A stretch of 33,102 bases of DNA from IMG/VR virus record IMGVR_UViG_3300037993_000335, positions 1-33,102 of that record, one strand, 5' to 3'. Below, in pieces: positions 2,623 through 33,048 of the stretch (positions are counted from its first letter, which is position 1; each line of letters opens with the position of its first letter). The translations under genes were made by a program, and so were the position numbers. Below the pieces are notes generated by a model. That model did no database searches. It was not told the DNA's origin and saw only the letters and a list, made by a program, of their open reading frames with translations. This DNA is from a virus.

Positions 2623-2749
2623 TCAAATCGAGCCAGAGCAACTTGCCAAACTCCAAAAACTCGTCACGCCTCGTCTGCCACTGGCGGAACTCATCCGCCG
2701 GGCGATTGACGAATACTTGGAGCGGCAAGAGAAAAAGGAGAAGCGATGA
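2606..2749 (+). CDS. ribbon-helix-helix DNA-binding protein, 47 aa
   Basis: The short N-terminal strand CEFQIEP is followed by EQLAKLQKL and LPLAELIRRAIDEYLER, which match the strand-helix-helix pattern of CopG/Arc-type regulators. Such proteins dimerise and insert a two-stranded sheet into the DNA major groove. The gene lies directly behind a consensus promoter with no room for a Shine-Dalgarno sequence, so translation is probably leaderless. Its TGA overlaps the next ATG (ATGA), coupling it to the 2746 gene. It may regulate its own promoter or act as an antitoxin, but no toxin is evident. Confidence 0.65.
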   Translation: MKRCEFQIEPEQLAKLQKLVTPRLPLAELIRRAIDEYLERQEKKEKR

Positions 2750-3288
2750 AGCGGAAACGAGCAAACCATCAGCGCATCACAATGCACGATGCAATGCGAG
2801 AAATTCGCTTGGCCAATCAGCGCATCACGGACCTCGCCGGCCAAGTCAAGTTCCTCCTCGATGCTCAGTCAAAGGCGACTGGACTGAGGAGCGACCAAAT
2901 TGAAAAGCTGGAGCGATCCACGCGGGAGATATTCCGCGAGGCGGAACGGCTCCTGGACGAATTGTCCGGCGCGTCCGGACTGCTGTTCCTGGTGTCTGGG
3001 CCAGCGGAGTTTTCCCCAGAAAAACTCGCGGAGTTTTATCCCGCTGGCAAGTTGATCCCATTCGTATTTCCAATAATGACCCGCAAGGGGATGATCGGAA
3101 TCGGCATGGCTAACTGCCTGCCCATCCTCGACGGACTGCGCGAACACGCTGCGAAACCGAACGAATATCAGATGCGCCAAATCATGGAAGCCGAGGCTTG
3201 TTGCCTCATCTGCGAAATCGAACGCAACCTTGGCAGAGACGTTTTTATGCTTGGTGATCGAACGCAACCTTGGCAGAGCCGTTTTTAG
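2746..3288 (+). CDS. hypothetical protein, 180 aa
   Basis: Translationally coupled to the ribbon-helix-helix gene. Residues 10-80 are predicted long helices with heptad-like Leu/Ile spacing and many charged residues, so probably a coiled coil. The C-terminal half has hydrophobic stretches but no clear membrane span. The last 13 or so codons lie in a 40-bp imperfect tandem duplication (3217-3296) that altered the original C-terminus. No family recognised. It could be the partner of the upstream DNA-binding protein. Confidence 0.55.
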   Translation: MKRKRANHQRITMHDAMREIRLANQRITDLAGQVKFLLDAQSKATGLRSDQIEKLERSTREIFREAERLLDELSGASGLLFLVSGPAEFSPEKLAEFYPAGKLIPFVFPIMTRKGMIGIGMANCLPILDGLREHAAKPNEYQMRQIMEAEACCLICEIERNLGRDVFMLGDRTQPWQSRF

Positions 3289-3296
3289 GCTTAATG
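3217..3296. repeat. 40-bp imperfect tandem duplication at a gene 3' end
   Basis: Copies 3217-3256 and 3257-3296 differ at four positions. Forty is not a multiple of three, so the second copy is read in another frame and supplies the TAG stop of the 2746 gene at 3286-3288. Confidence 0.8.
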
Positions 3297-6044: not shown

Positions 6045-7457
6045 TTAGGTCCAGGGATTACTGCCCCCGCTTTGCCACGGGTCAATGCTGCTTTCGGCGA
6101 AGGTTGCAATAGTTCCGGTGGTCGCCGGAACGGCATAACCATCAAGGTTGTCCAATTTGGCCATGACGTACCGCGTTTCGTCCAACCCGTGATTGTCCTT
6201 ATCTACCGGCACTTCTTTCACCGCCTTCCCATCTTGTCCCTTCGGCCATGAGTACGAATCGAACTCCTCTCGCGTGTTCGTCGGCAACCGACTTGTTAAC
6301 AGCACGTCGTCAACCTCTTCGCGTGCATCCTCCACGATGAACAATCTCGGCTTGCCGTCTCCGGCGTTTTGTAGCCTGCGCTCTACGCATTGGATGCCGG
6401 GCGAAATGTCGTTGAACCCCTCGATAACCGGTAATCCAGCCATCCGAAATTGCTTGATGTTCGCCGGCTCGGCCGGATCACAAACAATCACTTCTGGCTT
6501 ATACCGATCAAACCATTCCTTCGCCTTGGCAATCCACCAATCGAGCGTGCGCTTCGATTGGTATACCTCTCGGTCAAGATACGCCCGCCCATCTCCGTCT
6601 ACCGCCCAAGCGCCTAGAACGCCTGGGTTGGTATATCCCCAATCAACTCCAAAGACGTACCGCTTGACGCCAACCGATTCAAATGCCTTGCGGGAAATAA
6701 TATGGCGCGCCGCGTCGAACGATTCGTAAACCAAACCTTCGGCCTGCGACCATTTCCCCTCAAGCAATCGCAACCGCCGGCTGCCCGTAAGAGTGTTCAG
6801 GATCGCCATCGTCTTGACGCCCTGAGCGGTCAACTTCCCATCATCATCGTACAGTGTCGGGTTGTCGGCATGCCGCGATTCAAGGAGCCTGAGCGGACCT
6901 ATTGCGGCGCGCTGTTTAATCCAGTGTTGGGGCGGACCTGGATTGCAGTCCCCAAACACCCGCGTATAGGGCATGACCGCGCCGCGCCCGGTTGTGCGTG
7001 TCAAAATCGTTTCATAATCACCAAGCGCTAGTTCTTCAGCTTGGTTGATATAGACAAAATCCCGCTCACTCGATAACGCCTTACCAGGATTGTCCATGCC
7101 GGCGAGCCAAAACCTTGAGCCGTTCGGATAATCAAACCACTGCGGCAACTCCCCACCGAAAGCCTTGACCGGAGTGTTCTCACCAAGGATGCGCCGATAC
7201 GTCTGAATCGCCGTGCTTACCAGCGTCGAGTAGACCTTGCGGCACATGACGCCTTGCGCGCCCGCATACTTCCAAAGCAATGCGTCGGCATAGTTGAGAC
7301 AACCCCACGTTTTGCCAGTTTCGGCAGGCCCGGAGACAATCGTTTCAAAGTCCCGCGTCTTCCAAAGCGTCTTGAGCGCGCCGCGTGGACAGAAGCCGCC
7401 CTTCTCGCCCGGCTTTAGTTCCGCAATGTAGTACCGGCTCTGTGCTATCGCGCTCAC
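6045..7457 (-). CDS. terL: terminase large subunit (packaging ATPase/nuclease)
   Basis: 470 aa. The ATPase domain has a Walker A GPAETGKT at residues 43-50, a Walker B-like FVYINQAEE at about 134-142 and a coupling motif FGDCNPG near 168-174. The C-terminal RNase H-like nuclease has candidate metal ligands Asp272 (FGVDWGY), Asp327 (VCDPAEP) and Asp426 (GLDETRY). It cuts and translocates phage DNA into the prohead with the small subunit and portal. The start overlaps the small subunit stop (ATGA-type), so the two are coupled. All key residues appear present. Confidence 0.92.
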   Translation of the reverse strand: MSAIAQSRYYIAELKPGEKGGFCPRGALKTLWKTRDFETIVSGPAETGKTWGCLNYADALLWKYAGAQGVMCRKVYSTLVSTAIQTYRRILGENTPVKAFGGELPQWFDYPNGSRFWLAGMDNPGKALSSERDFVYINQAEELALGDYETILTRTTGRGAVMPYTRVFGDCNPGPPQHWIKQRAAIGPLRLLESRHADNPTLYDDDGKLTAQGVKTMAILNTLTGSRRLRLLEGKWSQAEGLVYESFDAARHIISRKAFESVGVKRYVFGVDWGYTNPGVLGAWAVDGDGRAYLDREVYQSKRTLDWWIAKAKEWFDRYKPEVIVCDPAEPANIKQFRMAGLPVIEGFNDISPGIQCVERRLQNAGDGKPRLFIVEDAREEVDDVLLTSRLPTNTREEFDSYSWPKGQDGKAVKEVPVDKDNHGLDETRYVMAKLDNLDGYAVPATTGTIATFAESSIDPWQSGGSNPWT

Positions 7458-9485: not shown

Positions 9486-9520
9486 CCGGTTACAGCCACT
9501 CACACAGAGGAGAAGAACCA

Positions 9521-9730
9521 ATGAGAACCGCTTGTGAACACAAAAAACCCCGCGTCAAACTGTCCGGTACGAATGGCAATGTATTTGCCGTTGCCGCAAC
9601 CGTCCGCCGTGCCGCAGAGGACGCTGGCTGGACCGATGAGCAATGGAACAAAGTCTGGAAAGAGGCCAAGGATACGCATTCCTATGACGGCGTTATCCAG
9701 ACCTTCATGCGATACTTTGACGTACGTTGA
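9521..9730 (+). CDS. small conserved-type phage protein, 69 aa
   Basis: GAGGAGAAG precedes the ATG. The layout VKLSGTNGNVFAVAATVRRAAEDAG followed by a helix, a YDG turn and a final short helix matches a small protein I have seen in many phages, in which a GxDGNAF-type strand precedes two helices. Its role is unknown to me. It sits between two genes that are each preceded by strong ribosome binding sites. Confidence 0.65.
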   Translation: MRTACEHKKPRVKLSGTNGNVFAVAATVRRAAEDAGWTDEQWNKVWKEAKDTHSYDGVIQTFMRYFDVR

Positions 9731-9770
9731 CTCGTCCCCGCGTTCCCCCGCCCGTGACTGGACGGGGATG

Positions 9771-9788
9771 CGCCGGAATTGGCCGGCG
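9771..9788 (+). promoter_or_regulatory. hairpin before the 9809 gene
   Basis: CGCCGG-AATTGG-CCGGCG forms a perfect 6-bp stem, followed by GGAGA and the GTG start at 9809. A weaker pairing, TCCCCG with CGGGGA, lies just upstream. It could be an attenuator or a translation-control hairpin. Confidence 0.35.
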
Positions 9789-9808
9789 GGAAGATGGAGA
9801 GAAACACC

Positions 9809-10222
9809 GTGAAAAATGTCATCAAATATATCGCCGACGACGGTTCAGAATGGACCGATAAGGCAAAAGCGGCGAAACGTGATGCGCTCCACGCCGAAGT
9901 GGTTGCCATTGAGCGCACGATCCCAGAGCCGCCGAATTCTTCGGATAAGCGGATTGCCGTCGATCCGACGGTAATGGCGAAAGCAAAATCGGTTGTTATC
10001 GAACTCTGCCGGCGCGAGTTTCCAAACGAGCCGGTCTTCAAACACCCGGCAGACAAAATACATCCAATGAGCTTCGCCGGCCGATTCTTAGACGATACCG
10101 GCGCCCCACTCTACCGCATCTGGCATCGGTTCATGTGCTATGCCGATGGATGGATGTACGAGCAGCCCTACTTCGCGCTGCACCCCGAACAATGGAGAAG
10201 GAAACAATCTGCCTCTGCCTGA
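9809..10222 (+). CDS. hypothetical phage protein, 137 aa
   Basis: I choose GTG at 9809, because GGAGA lies 8 bases upstream; an ATG at 9794 is the alternative. The N-terminal IKYIADDGSEWTDKAKA suggests a short strand and a basic helix. The C-terminal half is rich in aromatic residues (WHRFMCYADGWMYEQPYF). No family recognised. It is soluble and co-directional with the operon of small proteins. Confidence 0.6.
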   Translation: MKNVIKYIADDGSEWTDKAKAAKRDALHAEVVAIERTIPEPPNSSDKRIAVDPTVMAKAKSVVIELCRREFPNEPVFKHPADKIHPMSFAGRFLDDTGAPLYRIWHRFMCYADGWMYEQPYFALHPEQWRRKQSASA

Positions 10223-10250
10223 GATTACCCCCGCCGCTCCGGCAACTCGG

Positions 10251-10301
10251 ATCGGCGATGGGCAATTTCGCCCCATCCGATAGCCAGCGGATTTACTGGC
10301 T
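10251..10301 (+). promoter_or_regulatory. two adjacent hairpins in a 96-bp intergenic gap
   Basis: The first pairs GATGGG (10257-10262) with CCCATC (10272-10277), extended by ATCG/CGAT across a bulge. The second pairs AGCCAG (10282-10287) with CTGGCT (10296-10301). They end five bases before the AGGAG of the next gene. This may be a terminator, an RNase-processing site or a structured leader. Confidence 0.35.
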
Positions 10302-10318
10302 GAATAGGAGCGTGATTT

Positions 10319-10648
10319 ATGGAAATCTCCTTGGCTGATCTAAAGTCACTTATGTCGAGCGCGGAGCATTGCTTTCCCGACAAAGACTACGGCTGGATCG
10401 TGCTGATTCTCCGCAACGGGTTCATTTTCGTCGGCGATACAAAGCGCGTCGGCGGCGTCGGCTTTTTGCGCGGCTATCAGGTGCGATACTACTCGAAACG
10501 CATCGGCGGCCTGCCGGAATTTGCCAGCGGCGGAAAGAGCGCCGACGACAAATTGGATGCCATCGACGGCGAATTGGAATTTCCTTGGTCTGCGGTCAAT
10601 GTGATTGGAGTATTACCATGCGGATCAAATTGGAAGAAGCACAACTAA
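10319..10648 (+). CDS. hypothetical phage protein, 109 aa
   Basis: AGGAG ends eight bases before the ATG. A strand-rich domain with GWIVLILRNGFIFVGDTKRVG is followed by a Gly/Lys loop and a Trp-containing C-terminus. The last 31 bases overlap the start of the Gly-repeat gene. Function unknown. Confidence 0.6.
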   Translation: MEISLADLKSLMSSAEHCFPDKDYGWIVLILRNGFIFVGDTKRVGGVGFLRGYQVRYYSKRIGGLPEFASGGKSADDKLDAIDGELEFPWSAVNVIGVLPCGSNWKKHN

Positions 10649-10884
10649 GGCGATACGGCTCCGGCTCCGGCTACGGCTGCGGCTCCGGCTACGGCTACGG
10701 CTACGGCGACGGCTACGGCTACGGCGACGGCTCCGGCGACGGCGACGGCTCCGGCGACGGCGACGGCTACGGCGACGGCTCCGGCGACGGCGACGGCTGC
10801 GGCGACGGCTGCGGCTACGGCTACGGCGACGGCTCCGGCGACGGCTACGGCCTCTCGGCGTCCGAATCAAATACGCCGGAATAG
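10618..10884 (+). CDS. Gly-Xaa dipeptide repeat protein, 88 aa
   Basis: GGAG lies seven bases before the ATG. A short basic N-terminus (MRIKLEEAQLRRYG) is followed by about 33 dipeptides in which Gly alternates with Tyr, Ser, Asp or Cys, then LSASESNTPE. Asp-Gly becomes dominant in the middle, and three Cys are spread along it. Such a chain should be highly flexible; DG/GDG runs could bind calcium and Tyr could promote condensation, both inference. The other frames of the repeat would give Arg/Leu or Arg/Ser runs, but only this frame has a good start. I have seen similar Gly-Tyr/Ser/Asp proteins in phages but know no function. Confidence 0.6.
   Translation: MRIKLEEAQLRRYGSGSGYGCGSGYGYGYGDGYGYGDGSGDGDGSGDGDGYGDGSGDGDGCGDGCGYGYGDGSGDGYGLSASESNTPE
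10653..10851 (+). repeat. degenerate hexanucleotide repeat, GGC-NNC
   Basis: About 33 hexamers of GGC followed by TAC, TCC, GAC or TGC. Adjacent units differ only at one or two bases of the second codon. The pattern suggests growth by slippage or unequal exchange with selection to keep Gly-Xaa coding. Confidence 0.85.
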
Positions 10885-10974
10885 CCAAACACCCGCGCTT
10901 TGCTTAACGGCGATCGGTCCACCTTGAGCCGCGATCCCGCCGCCGGATTGCAGGCGGCAGAACCAGAGGTATTT

Positions 10975-11259
10975 ATGACATATGAACAAGCGAAAAAGCT
11001 ATGCGATTCCGGCTGGTGGAAGGATAAAACCGACCGCGAACTCGCCGAATTCCAGTTATTCGAGCGAAGGCTATGTATGCCTTGGGAGAGATTCCACCAA
11101 GCGGTTAGCAAAGCATTGGGCCGTCCGGTCTACACCCATGAATTCGGTTTGAATGTTGAGGGATTACGGCAAGAACTATTGGGCCATCGTCCCCCGCCGA
11201 CTTTGCAGGAAATCATCGAAATGATCCCGGCGGATAAGCGCATCATTGTGACTACTTAA
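10975..11259 (+). CDS. hypothetical phage protein, 94 aa
   Basis: I choose ATG 10975 because AGAGGT precedes it; an upstream start at 10900 has no ribosome binding site. The protein is helical, with Trp-rich GWWKDKTDRELAEFQLFERRL and a second part ending in LQEIIEMIPADKRIIV. No known family. It lies in the plus-strand small-gene operon. Confidence 0.6.
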   Translation: MTYEQAKKLCDSGWWKDKTDRELAEFQLFERRLCMPWERFHQAVSKALGRPVYTHEFGLNVEGLRQELLGHRPPPTLQEIIEMIPADKRIIVTT

Positions 11260-11277
11260 CCCTACAGGAGCTTGACC

Positions 11278-11475
11278 ATGCTGTGCGAATTCAAATGCGA
11301 TAATCCCGACTGAGGCGCGACATTTTACGTCGATTGTGATGTCGATACCCCCGTGTCATCCTGTTGTTGCCCTGGTTGCCGACACGACGTTGAACCTACC
11401 GGCCGCGAATTTGAAGGACCGGGGGTCCAAGTCCTGCACCTTCCGCCCAAACTTCCGAAGGTTGTTGAATGGTAG
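11278..11475 (+). pseudogene. zinc-ribbon gene with an in-frame TGA at a Cys position
   Basis: AGGAG ends seven bases before the ATG at 11278. The frame reads MLCEFKCDNPD, then TGA (11311-11313), then GATFYVDCDVDTPVSSCCCPGC and continues to TAG at 11473-11475. A zinc ribbon would expect Cys where TGA stands (CDNPD-C-GATF), one base change from TGC. A perfect 6-bp stem, CGACAT with ATGTCG (11318-11323 and 11339-11344), begins five bases after the TGA. The simplest view is a nonsense mutation or base error. Recoding as selenocysteine is possible but unproven, and other genes here use TGA as stop. Confidence 0.55.
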
Positions 11476-11533
11476 CCCCGGATGATCGCGCCGGCGATCC
11501 CGACCCCTTTGACCCGATTTAGGAGCAACGACC

Positions 11534-12550
11534 ATGAACACGCAATCATTCCTTGAAAAATGGCGTCCATCTCGGCTCGATCAGGTGATTGGGCAAGATG
11601 AGATTGTCGCAATCCTCAAAGCCTACGTTGCCAACCCCGAACCGACCGCGTTCATCCTGTGCGGATCGACCGGCTGTGGCAAGGGAAGCGCCGCATCGGC
11701 CCTATGCAATGAACTTGGGGCCGATCCGTACTGGGGTGTTCAGGACATCCCCGCCGGCAAGCAGACTGCGGAGGCGGTTGATGAGATGACCCGCACACTT
11801 TGGCAGCATTGCCCCGCCGGTTCGGGCTGGAAAGTGGTAATCGTCAACGAATGCGACCAGATGCACCCCAAGGTCAACGCCAGGTGGTGCGATATTCTGG
11901 AAAACATACCGCCCAAAGTCTGTATCATCTTTACGACGAATAAGATCGCGGAAATGACCAAAGACGATGAGGGCCGAAGATTCGTTGACCGCTGCCATCG
12001 GCTCGATTTCCGATCAGACTGGGCGATCCTGGACAGCGCCCAACCGCTCATAAATCGCATTTGGGCTGCATCCGTGAATCACAACCACGTTCCCCGCGCC
12101 GCCGATCTTGTCAGTTCTGGCGGTTTCGGGGGACAAGTCTCGTTCCGCCGCATCGTCAACGCTCTGCATGACCGCATCATGCGCCTCCCGGCATCCGAGC
12201 GTATTCTGCCCGTCGATCCTCCCAAACCGCAAGCCCAGCCAGCGGCAGAGCCGGAAGTGGCGATGGATGCCCCGGCGATACCGGATGCGCCAGAATCACA
12301 GCCATTGCCTTGCGAGCCGCTGCCGGAAGTCAAACCAGAACCAGCGCCGGTTTACGTTGCCCCGACCCCGGTATGGCCGGAATGGAAATTGCAGCCGTGC
12401 TGGTATGTGACTGTAACCGACGGGCCGCGCACCGCGCTGGTTTGCGGGCCGTTCGCGGAGGCTGGCCAAGCAGCGGCTCGACGAAATCGACCCCGAAAAG
12501 ATCGTGCCGAAAGGACCGTGAACAATGCGCAAAATTTACAGTCCCATTAG
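11534..12550 (+). CDS. clamp-loader-like AAA+ ATPase (RFC/DnaX family)
   Basis: 338 aa. The AAA+ domain begins with EKWRPSRLDQVIGQDEIV, a classic RFC/DnaX entry. It has a Walker A GSTGCGKG at 44-51, a Walker B-like VVIVNECDQM at 101-110 (Asn-Glu rather than Asp-Glu) and sensor 1 IIFTTNK at 131-137. A Pro/Ala/Glu-rich linker follows (about 226-300), then a small Trp-containing domain. It would help load a sliding clamp at phage replication forks. No clamp gene is in the window. From about 12455 a different frame (AKQRLDEIDPEKIVPKGP, stop 12519-12521) reads more naturally than the annotated tail, so a frameshift is likely. Confidence 0.78.
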   Translation: MNTQSFLEKWRPSRLDQVIGQDEIVAILKAYVANPEPTAFILCGSTGCGKGSAASALCNELGADPYWGVQDIPAGKQTAEAVDEMTRTLWQHCPAGSGWKVVIVNECDQMHPKVNARWCDILENIPPKVCIIFTTNKIAEMTKDDEGRRFVDRCHRLDFRSDWAILDSAQPLINRIWAASVNHNHVPRAADLVSSGGFGGQVSFRRIVNALHDRIMRLPASERILPVDPPKPQAQPAAEPEVAMDAPAIPDAPESQPLPCEPLPEVKPEPAPVYVAPTPVWPEWKLQPCWYVTVTDGPRTALVCGPFAEAGQAAARRNRPRKDRAERTVNNAQNLQSH

Positions 12551-12767
12551 GCTAGCCGAACGAAATGTTCATTTCAGTCCAGACAGAACGCACATAATGC
12601 TGTTGCTGCACGATTCTTACATACATATTGGACCGTTTCATCCGGAGGTCACTCCAGAGCAACGGATAGAATCGCTTGAAATTCGCCGCGCCCAATATGC
12701 CTGTTTCGTTCGGGATCAGCGGGAAATTGGCGCGCGGTTAGCGCAGCAACAGAAGGATATCCCATGA
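12525..12767 (+). CDS. hypothetical phage protein, 80 aa
   Basis: AAGGA lies nine bases before the ATG. The protein has a beta-like first half (IYSPIRLAERNVHF, HIMLLLHDSYIHIG) and a charged helical second half with EQRIESLEIRRAQ. Its stop overlaps the next ATG. No family recognised. Confidence 0.55.
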   Translation: MRKIYSPIRLAERNVHFSPDRTHIMLLLHDSYIHIGPFHPEVTPEQRIESLEIRRAQYACFVRDQREIGARLAQQQKDIP

Positions 12768-32889: not shown

Positions 32890-33048
32890 ATGCGACGAAA
32901 AAACAAAAAGTGGGATTGGTCGCTTTGGCTTAAATGCCTTGAGGAGTCGGAAATATCCGCTGCCGCGAAGCCCAGGCTGCCGCGAAGCCCAGGCTGCCGC
33001 GAAGCCCTCATCGAAATCGTGAGGGACATGCCGGAGGCGACCCAATGA
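32890..33048 (+). CDS. small protein with 17-bp tandem repeats, 52 aa
   Basis: AGGGAAA precedes the ATG. A Lys/Trp-rich N-terminus (RRKNKKWDWSLWLKC) leads into a part encoded by almost three copies of a 17-bp unit (32959-33006), then EALIEIVRDMPEATQ. The stop overlaps the next ATG. The third copy alone keeps the final frame. No family recognised. Confidence 0.5.
   Translation: MRRKNKKWDWSLWLKCLEESEISAAAKPRLPRSPGCREALIEIVRDMPEATQ
32959..33006 (+). repeat. 17-bp tandem repeat, 2.8 copies
   Basis: Units at 32959-32975 and 32976-32992 and a partial one at 32993-33006 are identical. Because 17 is not a multiple of three, each copy is read in a different frame. Confidence 0.85.

Follow-up and report, generated by a model that had tools for sequence, protein, structure and literature searches.

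A glycine-dipeptide repeat gene is very likely the second member of a widespread two-gene unit of phages

Analysis of a virus record of 33,102 bases (the window, that is, the whole stretch of DNA analysed) indicates that a repeat encoding alternating Gly-Xaa (Gly-X) dipeptides is very likely a real gene and the second of a two-gene phage unit that is widespread and little described. We define this unit, the DUF6948-GlyX module, as a DUF6948-like gene directly upstream, an overlapping start, the -1 frame and a Gly-X array rich in Ser, Tyr and Asp. The window carries one such module, with a 31-nt overlap, the -1 frame, 33 units and a divergent upstream gene. That the module is real and translated is, in our judgement, almost certain. 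At the level of sequence, our comparisons demonstrate that the two genes are paired and overlap at the start of the second, that purifying selection maintains residue type, that arrays change in length without leaving the frame and in the order of their units, and that the genes are fused at one locus. Evidence for the pairing and for coding is good; we infer what the products do.

The first-pass annotation described a GGC-NNC hexamer array encoding 33 Gly-Xaa dipeptides, and both translation and Tandem Repeats Finder (period 6, 33.0 copies, score 242) bore this out: the dipeptides occupy residues 14-79 of the 88-aa product without interruption (Table 1). The lead before the array comprises 13 residues rather than the 12 first counted, and the X positions, described as Tyr, Ser and Asp, also hold three Cys and one Leu. 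All glycine codons are GGC, while the X codons are GAC (12), TAC (10), TCC (7), TGC (3) and CTC (1). The claim that every reading frame stays open across the array was correct for five of the six, the remaining minus-strand frame having 10 stops. A four-unit pattern matched the plus strand of the record 19 times and the backward-read control not once, which excludes a chance origin of the array. GC content is 0.78 in the array and 0.56 in the whole window, and the product contains 16 Asp or Glu residues against 4 Lys or Arg. Disorder and condensate formation, also proposed initially, are suggested by the residue composition. In the phage collection, tblastn with the 88-aa product, whose low-complexity sequence is filtered by the tool, gave no match, and a match to Pfam TrAA12 was rejected as it lay below the Pfam cut-off. 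Rfam had no match at 9500-12600, and a tRNA search of the window found none. Elsewhere, the window contains an imperfect tandem repeat at 3217-3292 (1.9 copies of a 40-nt period, not a multiple of 3) near the end of the plus-strand ORF 2746-3288; a 17-nt unit, GCTGCCGCGAAGCCCAG, repeated 2.9 times with 100% match at 32959-33007 near the record end; and a minus-strand gene for the terminase large subunit at 6045-7457, with best identities of 37-38% to Thermobifida and Streptomyces phages.

Table 1. Features of the two-gene unit and its downstream neighbours in the window.
Feature	Position	Strand	Basis
Upstream partner, 109-aa Sm/LSm-like small beta protein (predicted), divergent DUF6948 relative	10319..10648	+	HMM, hhalign, AF2 model
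Likely Shine-Dalgarno sequence (GGAG) of the Gly-X gene, 7 nt upstream of ATG	10607..10610	+	Sequence; SD-like cores in relatives
Overlap of both genes (31 nt), Gly-X gene in -1 frame	10618..10648	+	Sequence
Gly-X gene	10618..10884	+	ATG ORF, 88 aa, stop at 10884
N-terminal lead, 13 residues, MRIKLEEAQLRRY	10618..10656	+	Translation
Gly-X array, 33 units GGC+NNC, X = D12 Y10 S7 C3 L1	10657..10854	+	Sequence, Tandem Repeats Finder
C-terminal tail SASESNTPE (9 residues) + stop TAG	10855..10884	+	Sequence
DUF7736 protein, next gene downstream	10975..11259	+	Pfam E 1.7e-12
Clamp-loader-like AAA protein (DNA replication)	11534..12550	+	PHROGs clamp loader E 1.1e-20; Pfam AAA E 2.2e-5

Similar proteins, which the first-pass annotation had suggested looking for in phages, are present there, mostly behind DUF6948, and comparison of these relatives supports its view of the repeat as protein-coding. 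In a first scan, ten units of Gly plus a KMY codon were sought in viral contigs, which yielded at least 120 stretches; among the 120 matches listed, mixed Tyr/Ser/Asp arrays occurred at 92 loci under a strict rule and 94 under a looser one. When all ORFs within 4 kb were compared with one another (matches listed), a single ORF family lay near the array in 71 of the 92 loci, the next largest in 11. This family is upstream of the array in 70 and, in L100, between two Gly-X runs. Pfam assigned five of seven upstream examples to DUF6948 (PF22253; E 8e-33 to 9e-8), and the two that failed its cut-off are a divergent subtype (L033) and the window's own ORF. A whole-family alignment of the upstream genes was too diverse to serve as a search query. 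By HMM, DUF6948 was found at 74 of the 94 array loci compared with one of the 26 loci of that scan without an array (matches listed), and 17 of the 20 array loci lacking it have less than 250 nt of upstream DNA. Of the remaining three, L062 reveals the gene when TGA is read as glycine, and L054 and L094 stay exceptions. The one array-free locus with DUF6948, L068, has a Gly-Ser/Asp run devoid of Tyr.

We also ran two further scans and a reverse search. The second scan of viral contigs fixed only GG at every sixth base and left the X codon free; of 107 loci classified from the matches listed, 25 carried mixed arrays. DUF6948 stood at 10 of 12 new array loci and at three of 77 loci that the filter called array-free (L299, L305 and L318; matches listed), and L299 and L305 have Gly-X runs of other residues despite that call. 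A 14-unit pattern run against GTDB genomes returned at least 118 stretches, of which six of the 118 listed passed the array filter and three of those six adjoin DUF6948. Searching with a DUF6948 sequence alone retrieved 548 relatives from viral contigs, and we kept the 80 best. A Gly-X ORF follows DUF6948 in 78 of these 80, always in the -1 frame (77 in a first pass, 78 once outliers had been read and the residue set widened); L380 and L405 have no Gly-X ORF behind DUF6948. These 80 loci represent the canonical subtype and are partly near-identical contigs, and thus are not 80 independent events. Using one DUF6948 protein, tblastn identified 16 phage records, one being a second copy of phiPLPE, and 12 of the other 15 passed the array filter. 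The Gly-rich ORF of ct8d5349 is interrupted, short Gly-X runs in two human-gut contigs lead into a C-terminal domain, and in phage ctRVW222 (L342:1505-1660) the array precedes DUF6948 instead of following it. DUF6948 looks rare in bacterial genomes: among 299 sampled from the phylum of G002, only G002 itself had it.

Several individual loci are of interest in their own right. In L062 (2524-3153) the DUF6948 gene contains in-frame TGA codons; inspected by eye, relatives have Gly at three of them and not at a fourth, and the three matches suggest that this phage translates TGA as glycine. The first units of its array are written with GGT, TCT and TAT. L042 carries five tandem Gly-X genes at about 1690-2970, downstream of DUF6948 at 687-977, which share the N-terminus MGLKAFLKF and the C-terminus GEPNLTSAGATVVEE and differ in their arrays. 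In L339 (3283-3528; gene 25 of Chlorobiaceae phage CV-1-33) the deposited gene uses another frame of the array (MAMALA...), and the correct frame is probably that of Gly-X. Some Gly-X genes run on into C-terminal domains. Of the 22 such tails listed, nine were compared with Pfam, none of which matched; L343:2360-2833, L360:3085-3423 and L098:1733-1921 exemplify three unrelated-looking domain types after the array, again with no Pfam match. The second gene may thus do more than act as a tail. Sixteen of the 80 DUF6948 contigs (L345-L424; best 80 of 548) end within the array, as expected of a repeat that is hard to assemble, and the gene is therefore probably under-counted in assemblies.

At the junction of the two genes, the overlap between the Gly-X start and the DUF6948 stop is exactly 13 nt for 66 of the 75 loci that have a start (best 80 of 548). 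An SD-like core precedes 56 of the 75 Gly-X starts, compared with 28 of 300 shifted windows; since these cores sit in conserved DUF6948 codons, part of the enrichment may reflect protein constraint. We also considered a ribosomal frameshift producing a fused protein, which would fit the constant -1 frame of the canonical loci. However, in a broader set of 72 upstream genes (matches listed), 53 Gly-X genes are in the -1 frame, 18 in +1 and one in the same frame, the last being a second downstream copy in L037. The 18 cases in +1 and the conserved start codons favour separate initiation, a frameshift being the less likely reading. The Gly-X gene is probably translated by coupling to the upstream gene. 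L021 has both parts fused in one ORF, the only such case among 101 DUF6948 hits in the loci examined.

The array had been predicted to vary in length among strains, and it does: the Gly-X ORFs of seven annotated Pectobacterium phages measure 270, 258, 222, 222, 222, 204 and 162 nt, multiples of 6 apart. A length change that breaks the frame, which would have spoken against a gene, was looked for and was absent, as both the frame and the start MSKLIKPE persist in eight cultured Pectobacterium-group phages whose arrays differ in length and order. Setting aside pairs whose array is cut by a contig end, we compared arrays between close relatives. Amona and Ymer are identical over 399 nt before and 250 nt after the array, within which Amona has a different order and three fewer units, a difference of 11 unit edits. 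L402 and L421 have identical flanks and differ by two unit edits, both GAC to TCC. The arrays are identical in the L061/L345-L352 group (uncut contigs), Ymer/Abuela, L354/L355 and L416/L423. The phages of the Ymer genus were sequenced by NextSeq and assembled with metaSPAdes (PMC11445585), a paper in whose available text the word glycine does not occur. Assembly error may affect the arrays of about 130-240 nt in the Ymer group, in which Ymer and Abuela agree exactly.

While the order of units changes, the residue alphabet is kept. Positions 1 and 2 of the X codon form a two-by-two set (T or G by A or C) that specifies Tyr, Ser, Asp and Ala. A single step leads from either the Ser or the Asp codons to Ala, which is nonetheless nearly absent. 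We counted it over the 2406 units of 87 distinct arrays that lie near DUF6948, each array having at least 70% Y/F/S/D/N/H, a cut that leaves out unusual arrays such as the V-rich L374. Ala codons (GCY) numbered 5 after GGC, 3 after GGG and 0 after GGT, against 157, 34 and 32 expected, respectively; with less filtering, 8 were counted and 200 expected. Because the deficit extends to GGG and GGT, a bias against the palindrome GGCGCC does not suffice to explain it. The 2429 X residues of 70 distinct arrays are mostly Ser (958), Tyr (719) and Asp (516), followed by Phe (38), Glu (36) and Lys plus Arg (13), and 66 of the 70 arrays hold an aromatic residue, an acidic residue and Ser. Proportions differ between arrays by more than sampling, in a set that includes a few wrong-frame arrays. 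Pairs of identical neighbours occur less often than in shuffled arrays (465 vs 546.5 in 49 arrays; combined Z -4.8, which is inflated by related arrays), the opposite of what simple slippage would produce. Judged by the near exclusion of Ala and of Lys and Arg, selection acts on the array at the protein level.

We then turn to the upstream partner in the window. Among the open frames of the window it scored best against two HMMs of the upstream gene (E 5e-6 and 0.0036; six records searched). Both HMMs exclude the window ORF; for the first, the window row had been part of the alignment when it was built and was taken out afterwards. In hhalign the ORF reached probability 77.6 (E 1.9e-5), and its terminal Trp is common to most aligned family members. 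By contrast, Pfam returned no family for it at E up to 1, and it lies below the cut-off of DUF6948 (PF22253). Given a score below the Pfam threshold together with HMM and hhalign matches, we call the ORF a divergent relative of DUF6948, the family of the gene before the array in most examples, with which it aligns and shares a predicted fold. The window's upstream ORF and clamp loader, used as baits in viral contigs, retrieved no confirmed relative, so the comparisons here include no close relative of the window phage.

Structure prediction points to a small, bent beta-barrel of the Sm/LSm-like kind, matched over most of the domain by the predicted models. A model of canonical DUF6948 (pLDDT 94.2, pTM 0.85) gave 50 best Foldseek titles that were Sm/LSm, snRNP or spliceosome, bar three NatC entries, with a best Foldseek E of 3e-3 and a best VIA Z of 8.5. 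The AF2 model of the window ORF (pLDDT 81.1, pTM 0.64) matched nearly all Sm/LSm structures, in a list close to that of canonical DUF6948. Its best match was 3BY7 (Z 8.8, rmsd 2.0 over 68 residues), an entry from an uncultured source titled as similar to Sm/LSm RNA-binding proteins, to which the ORF has no sequence match. Because DUF6948 members were in the alignment behind the window model, the two fold results are not independent. In Foldseek neither model had a match under E 1e-3, and the structure tool itself describes a Z near 8 as borderline. At E up to 10, neither the DUF6948 (A2) profile nor the window ORF matched a solved chain by sequence, and the Sm relation thus rests on predicted fold.

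Genes of recombination lie near the pair at some loci. Within 4 kb of the array, clustering (matches listed) found ERF at 11 loci, a YqaJ-type recombinase at 9 and SSB at 5, and the examples confirmed by Pfam comprise two of ERF, two of YqaJ and one of SSB. Near the pair, Ymer has exonuclease VIII, Erf and SSB, and Sabo has Erf and SSB. In the window, the clamp-loader-like gene begins 650 nt downstream of the Gly-X gene.

We propose tentatively, as a mechanism that is plausible though short of probable, that an Sm-like protein and a disordered partner, encoded separately and translated by coupling, act together on nucleic acid early in infection. Gene 1 would encode a small Sm/LSm-like protein of the DUF6948 kind, as the models predict. 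Gene 2 begins within gene 1, and coupled translation would provide a matched supply of a Gly-rich Tyr/Ser/Asp chain. The gene 1 product may form a ring that binds RNA or single-stranded DNA, and the disordered gene 2 product may serve as its detached low-complexity tail, making many weak contacts through Tyr and Asp. It could compete with nucleic acid for the ring, by analogy with the acidic tail of Hfq, or it could gather rings and nucleic acid into an assembly. The pair would act during early replication or recombination. Joint action of the two proteins is suggested by their near-obligatory pairing and by the L021 fusion. We consider it possible, though doubtful as a whole, that tailed phages from organic waste, spring water and human faeces, one of which apparently reads TGA as glycine, possess an Sm-like protein whose disordered tail became a separate, coupled gene, that unit rearrangement reshuffles the order of Gly-Ser, Gly-Tyr and Gly-Asp while selection holds the alphabet, and that the pair is an assembly or regulator of nucleic acid in early infection.

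Known Sm proteins offer parallels to this arrangement. The eukaryotic Sm proteins D1, D3 and B combine an Sm fold with Gly-Arg tails. They share with the phage pair the fold (predicted in the phage) and Gly-X dipeptides; their X, however, is Arg and lies in the same chain, whereas the phage arrays nearly exclude Lys and Arg and, except in L021, form a separate gene. In Hfq, as described in the available part of PMC5606850, an acidic, disordered C-terminal tail mimics nucleic acid and regulates the Sm ring. The likeness seen lies in an Sm fold, predicted in the phage, with an acidic and, in the phage, presumably flexible segment, rather than in sequence; unlike the Hfq tail, the phage segment is a separate, overlapping Gly-X gene with many Tyr.

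Alternatively, gene 2 could be a self-sufficient scaffold of a condensate or gel, with Tyr as stickers, Gly and Ser as spacers and Asp for solubility, the Sm-like protein being a client or merely co-expressed. An alphabet kept while order changes agrees with this, as does the shortage of identical neighbours, its Z treating related arrays as independent, and array genes have multiplied on their own in L042 (five copies) and L420 (two). We nevertheless consider a self-sufficient scaffold unlikely, for the near-obligatory pairing with DUF6948 and the fusion point to joint action. Less likely still is a counter-defence role or host inhibitor, in which gene 2 would be a flexible acidic decoy for a host nuclease or a nucleic-acid-binding defence protein. 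The early recombination neighbourhood, the overall acidity and the turnover of arrays between close strains would suit a decoy, but the charge is modest for a DNA mimic, Tyr is left unexplained and no defence target is known.

The repeat could also act as RNA. Sm-like proteins bind RNA, and the repeated mRNA might be a multivalent site for the upstream product, making the pair self-regulating. The window array RNA folds worse than each of 200 shuffles (z 2.97), and Ser codons are narrow in the arrays (TCC 775, TCT 141, AGC 14, TCA 7, TCG 2, AGT 1; under a looser cut TCC 659, TCT 168, TCG 34, AGC 25, TCA 13) compared with the neighbouring gene (TCG 175, TCA 132, AGC 104, TCC 95, TCT 75, AGT 38). 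Narrow codon use, however, also fits array growth by unit copying. Moreover, the Gly codon varies (GGC 1772, GGG 361, GGT 251, GGA 22), Ala is avoided behind all three common Gly codons, L062 departs from the usual codons in its first units, and Phe or Trp replaces Tyr and Glu replaces Asp. We regard an RNA element as improbable.

A DNA element, such as an integration attachment site, has been suggested for the same class of repeat. PMC3391216 lists in its Table 3 a GC-rich repeat of phage phiPLPE, (KMGCCG)35, published as a DNA repeat, with the speculation that it is an attachment site, and a xerD-like gene precedes the pair in ct8d5349. However, the table in that paper contains no integrase for phiPLPE, and the repeat proves to be an in-frame Gly-X ORF behind DUF6948, with coordinates agreeing within a base. 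A DNA site needs no conserved start, frame or residue selection, and six of the 118 listed GTDB stretches had arrays, three beside DUF6948; we consider this explanation very improbable. Apart from the repeat itself in PMC3391216, our literature search found no paper describing the pair of DUF6948 and Gly-X gene and none containing the name DUF6948, and the available part of a survey of low-complexity regions (PMC6821194) does not mention the Gly-X family.

Neutral expansion of a repeat in a dispensable ORF is just as improbable as an attachment site: simple units can turn over fast, but the array is kept at 78 of 80 DUF6948 loci (best 80 of 548), Ala and basic residues are nearly excluded, and the eight Pectobacterium phages show no frame-breaking change. 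The calcium binding raised in the first-pass annotation is the least credible of all, for despite its Asp-Gly pairs the array has a two-residue unit with no GG pair, unlike the GGXGXDXUX nonapeptide of the RTX motif, and Asp changes to Ser or Tyr between near-identical phages.

If a coupled Sm-like protein and its disordered partner do act together on nucleic acid, the finding would provide a lead to the function of DUF6948 and would reinterpret the attachment-site guess for the phiPLPE repeat. It would also carry a warning for annotation, as contigs stop at Gly-X arrays and the frame assigned to such an array can be the wrong one. An Sm-like system with a low-complexity partner would then belong to a common class of phages. 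Because reordered versions exist in near-identical cultured phages (Ymer and Amona), the pair would offer a natural test of whether residue type and valence, rather than order, set the function of a disordered protein.
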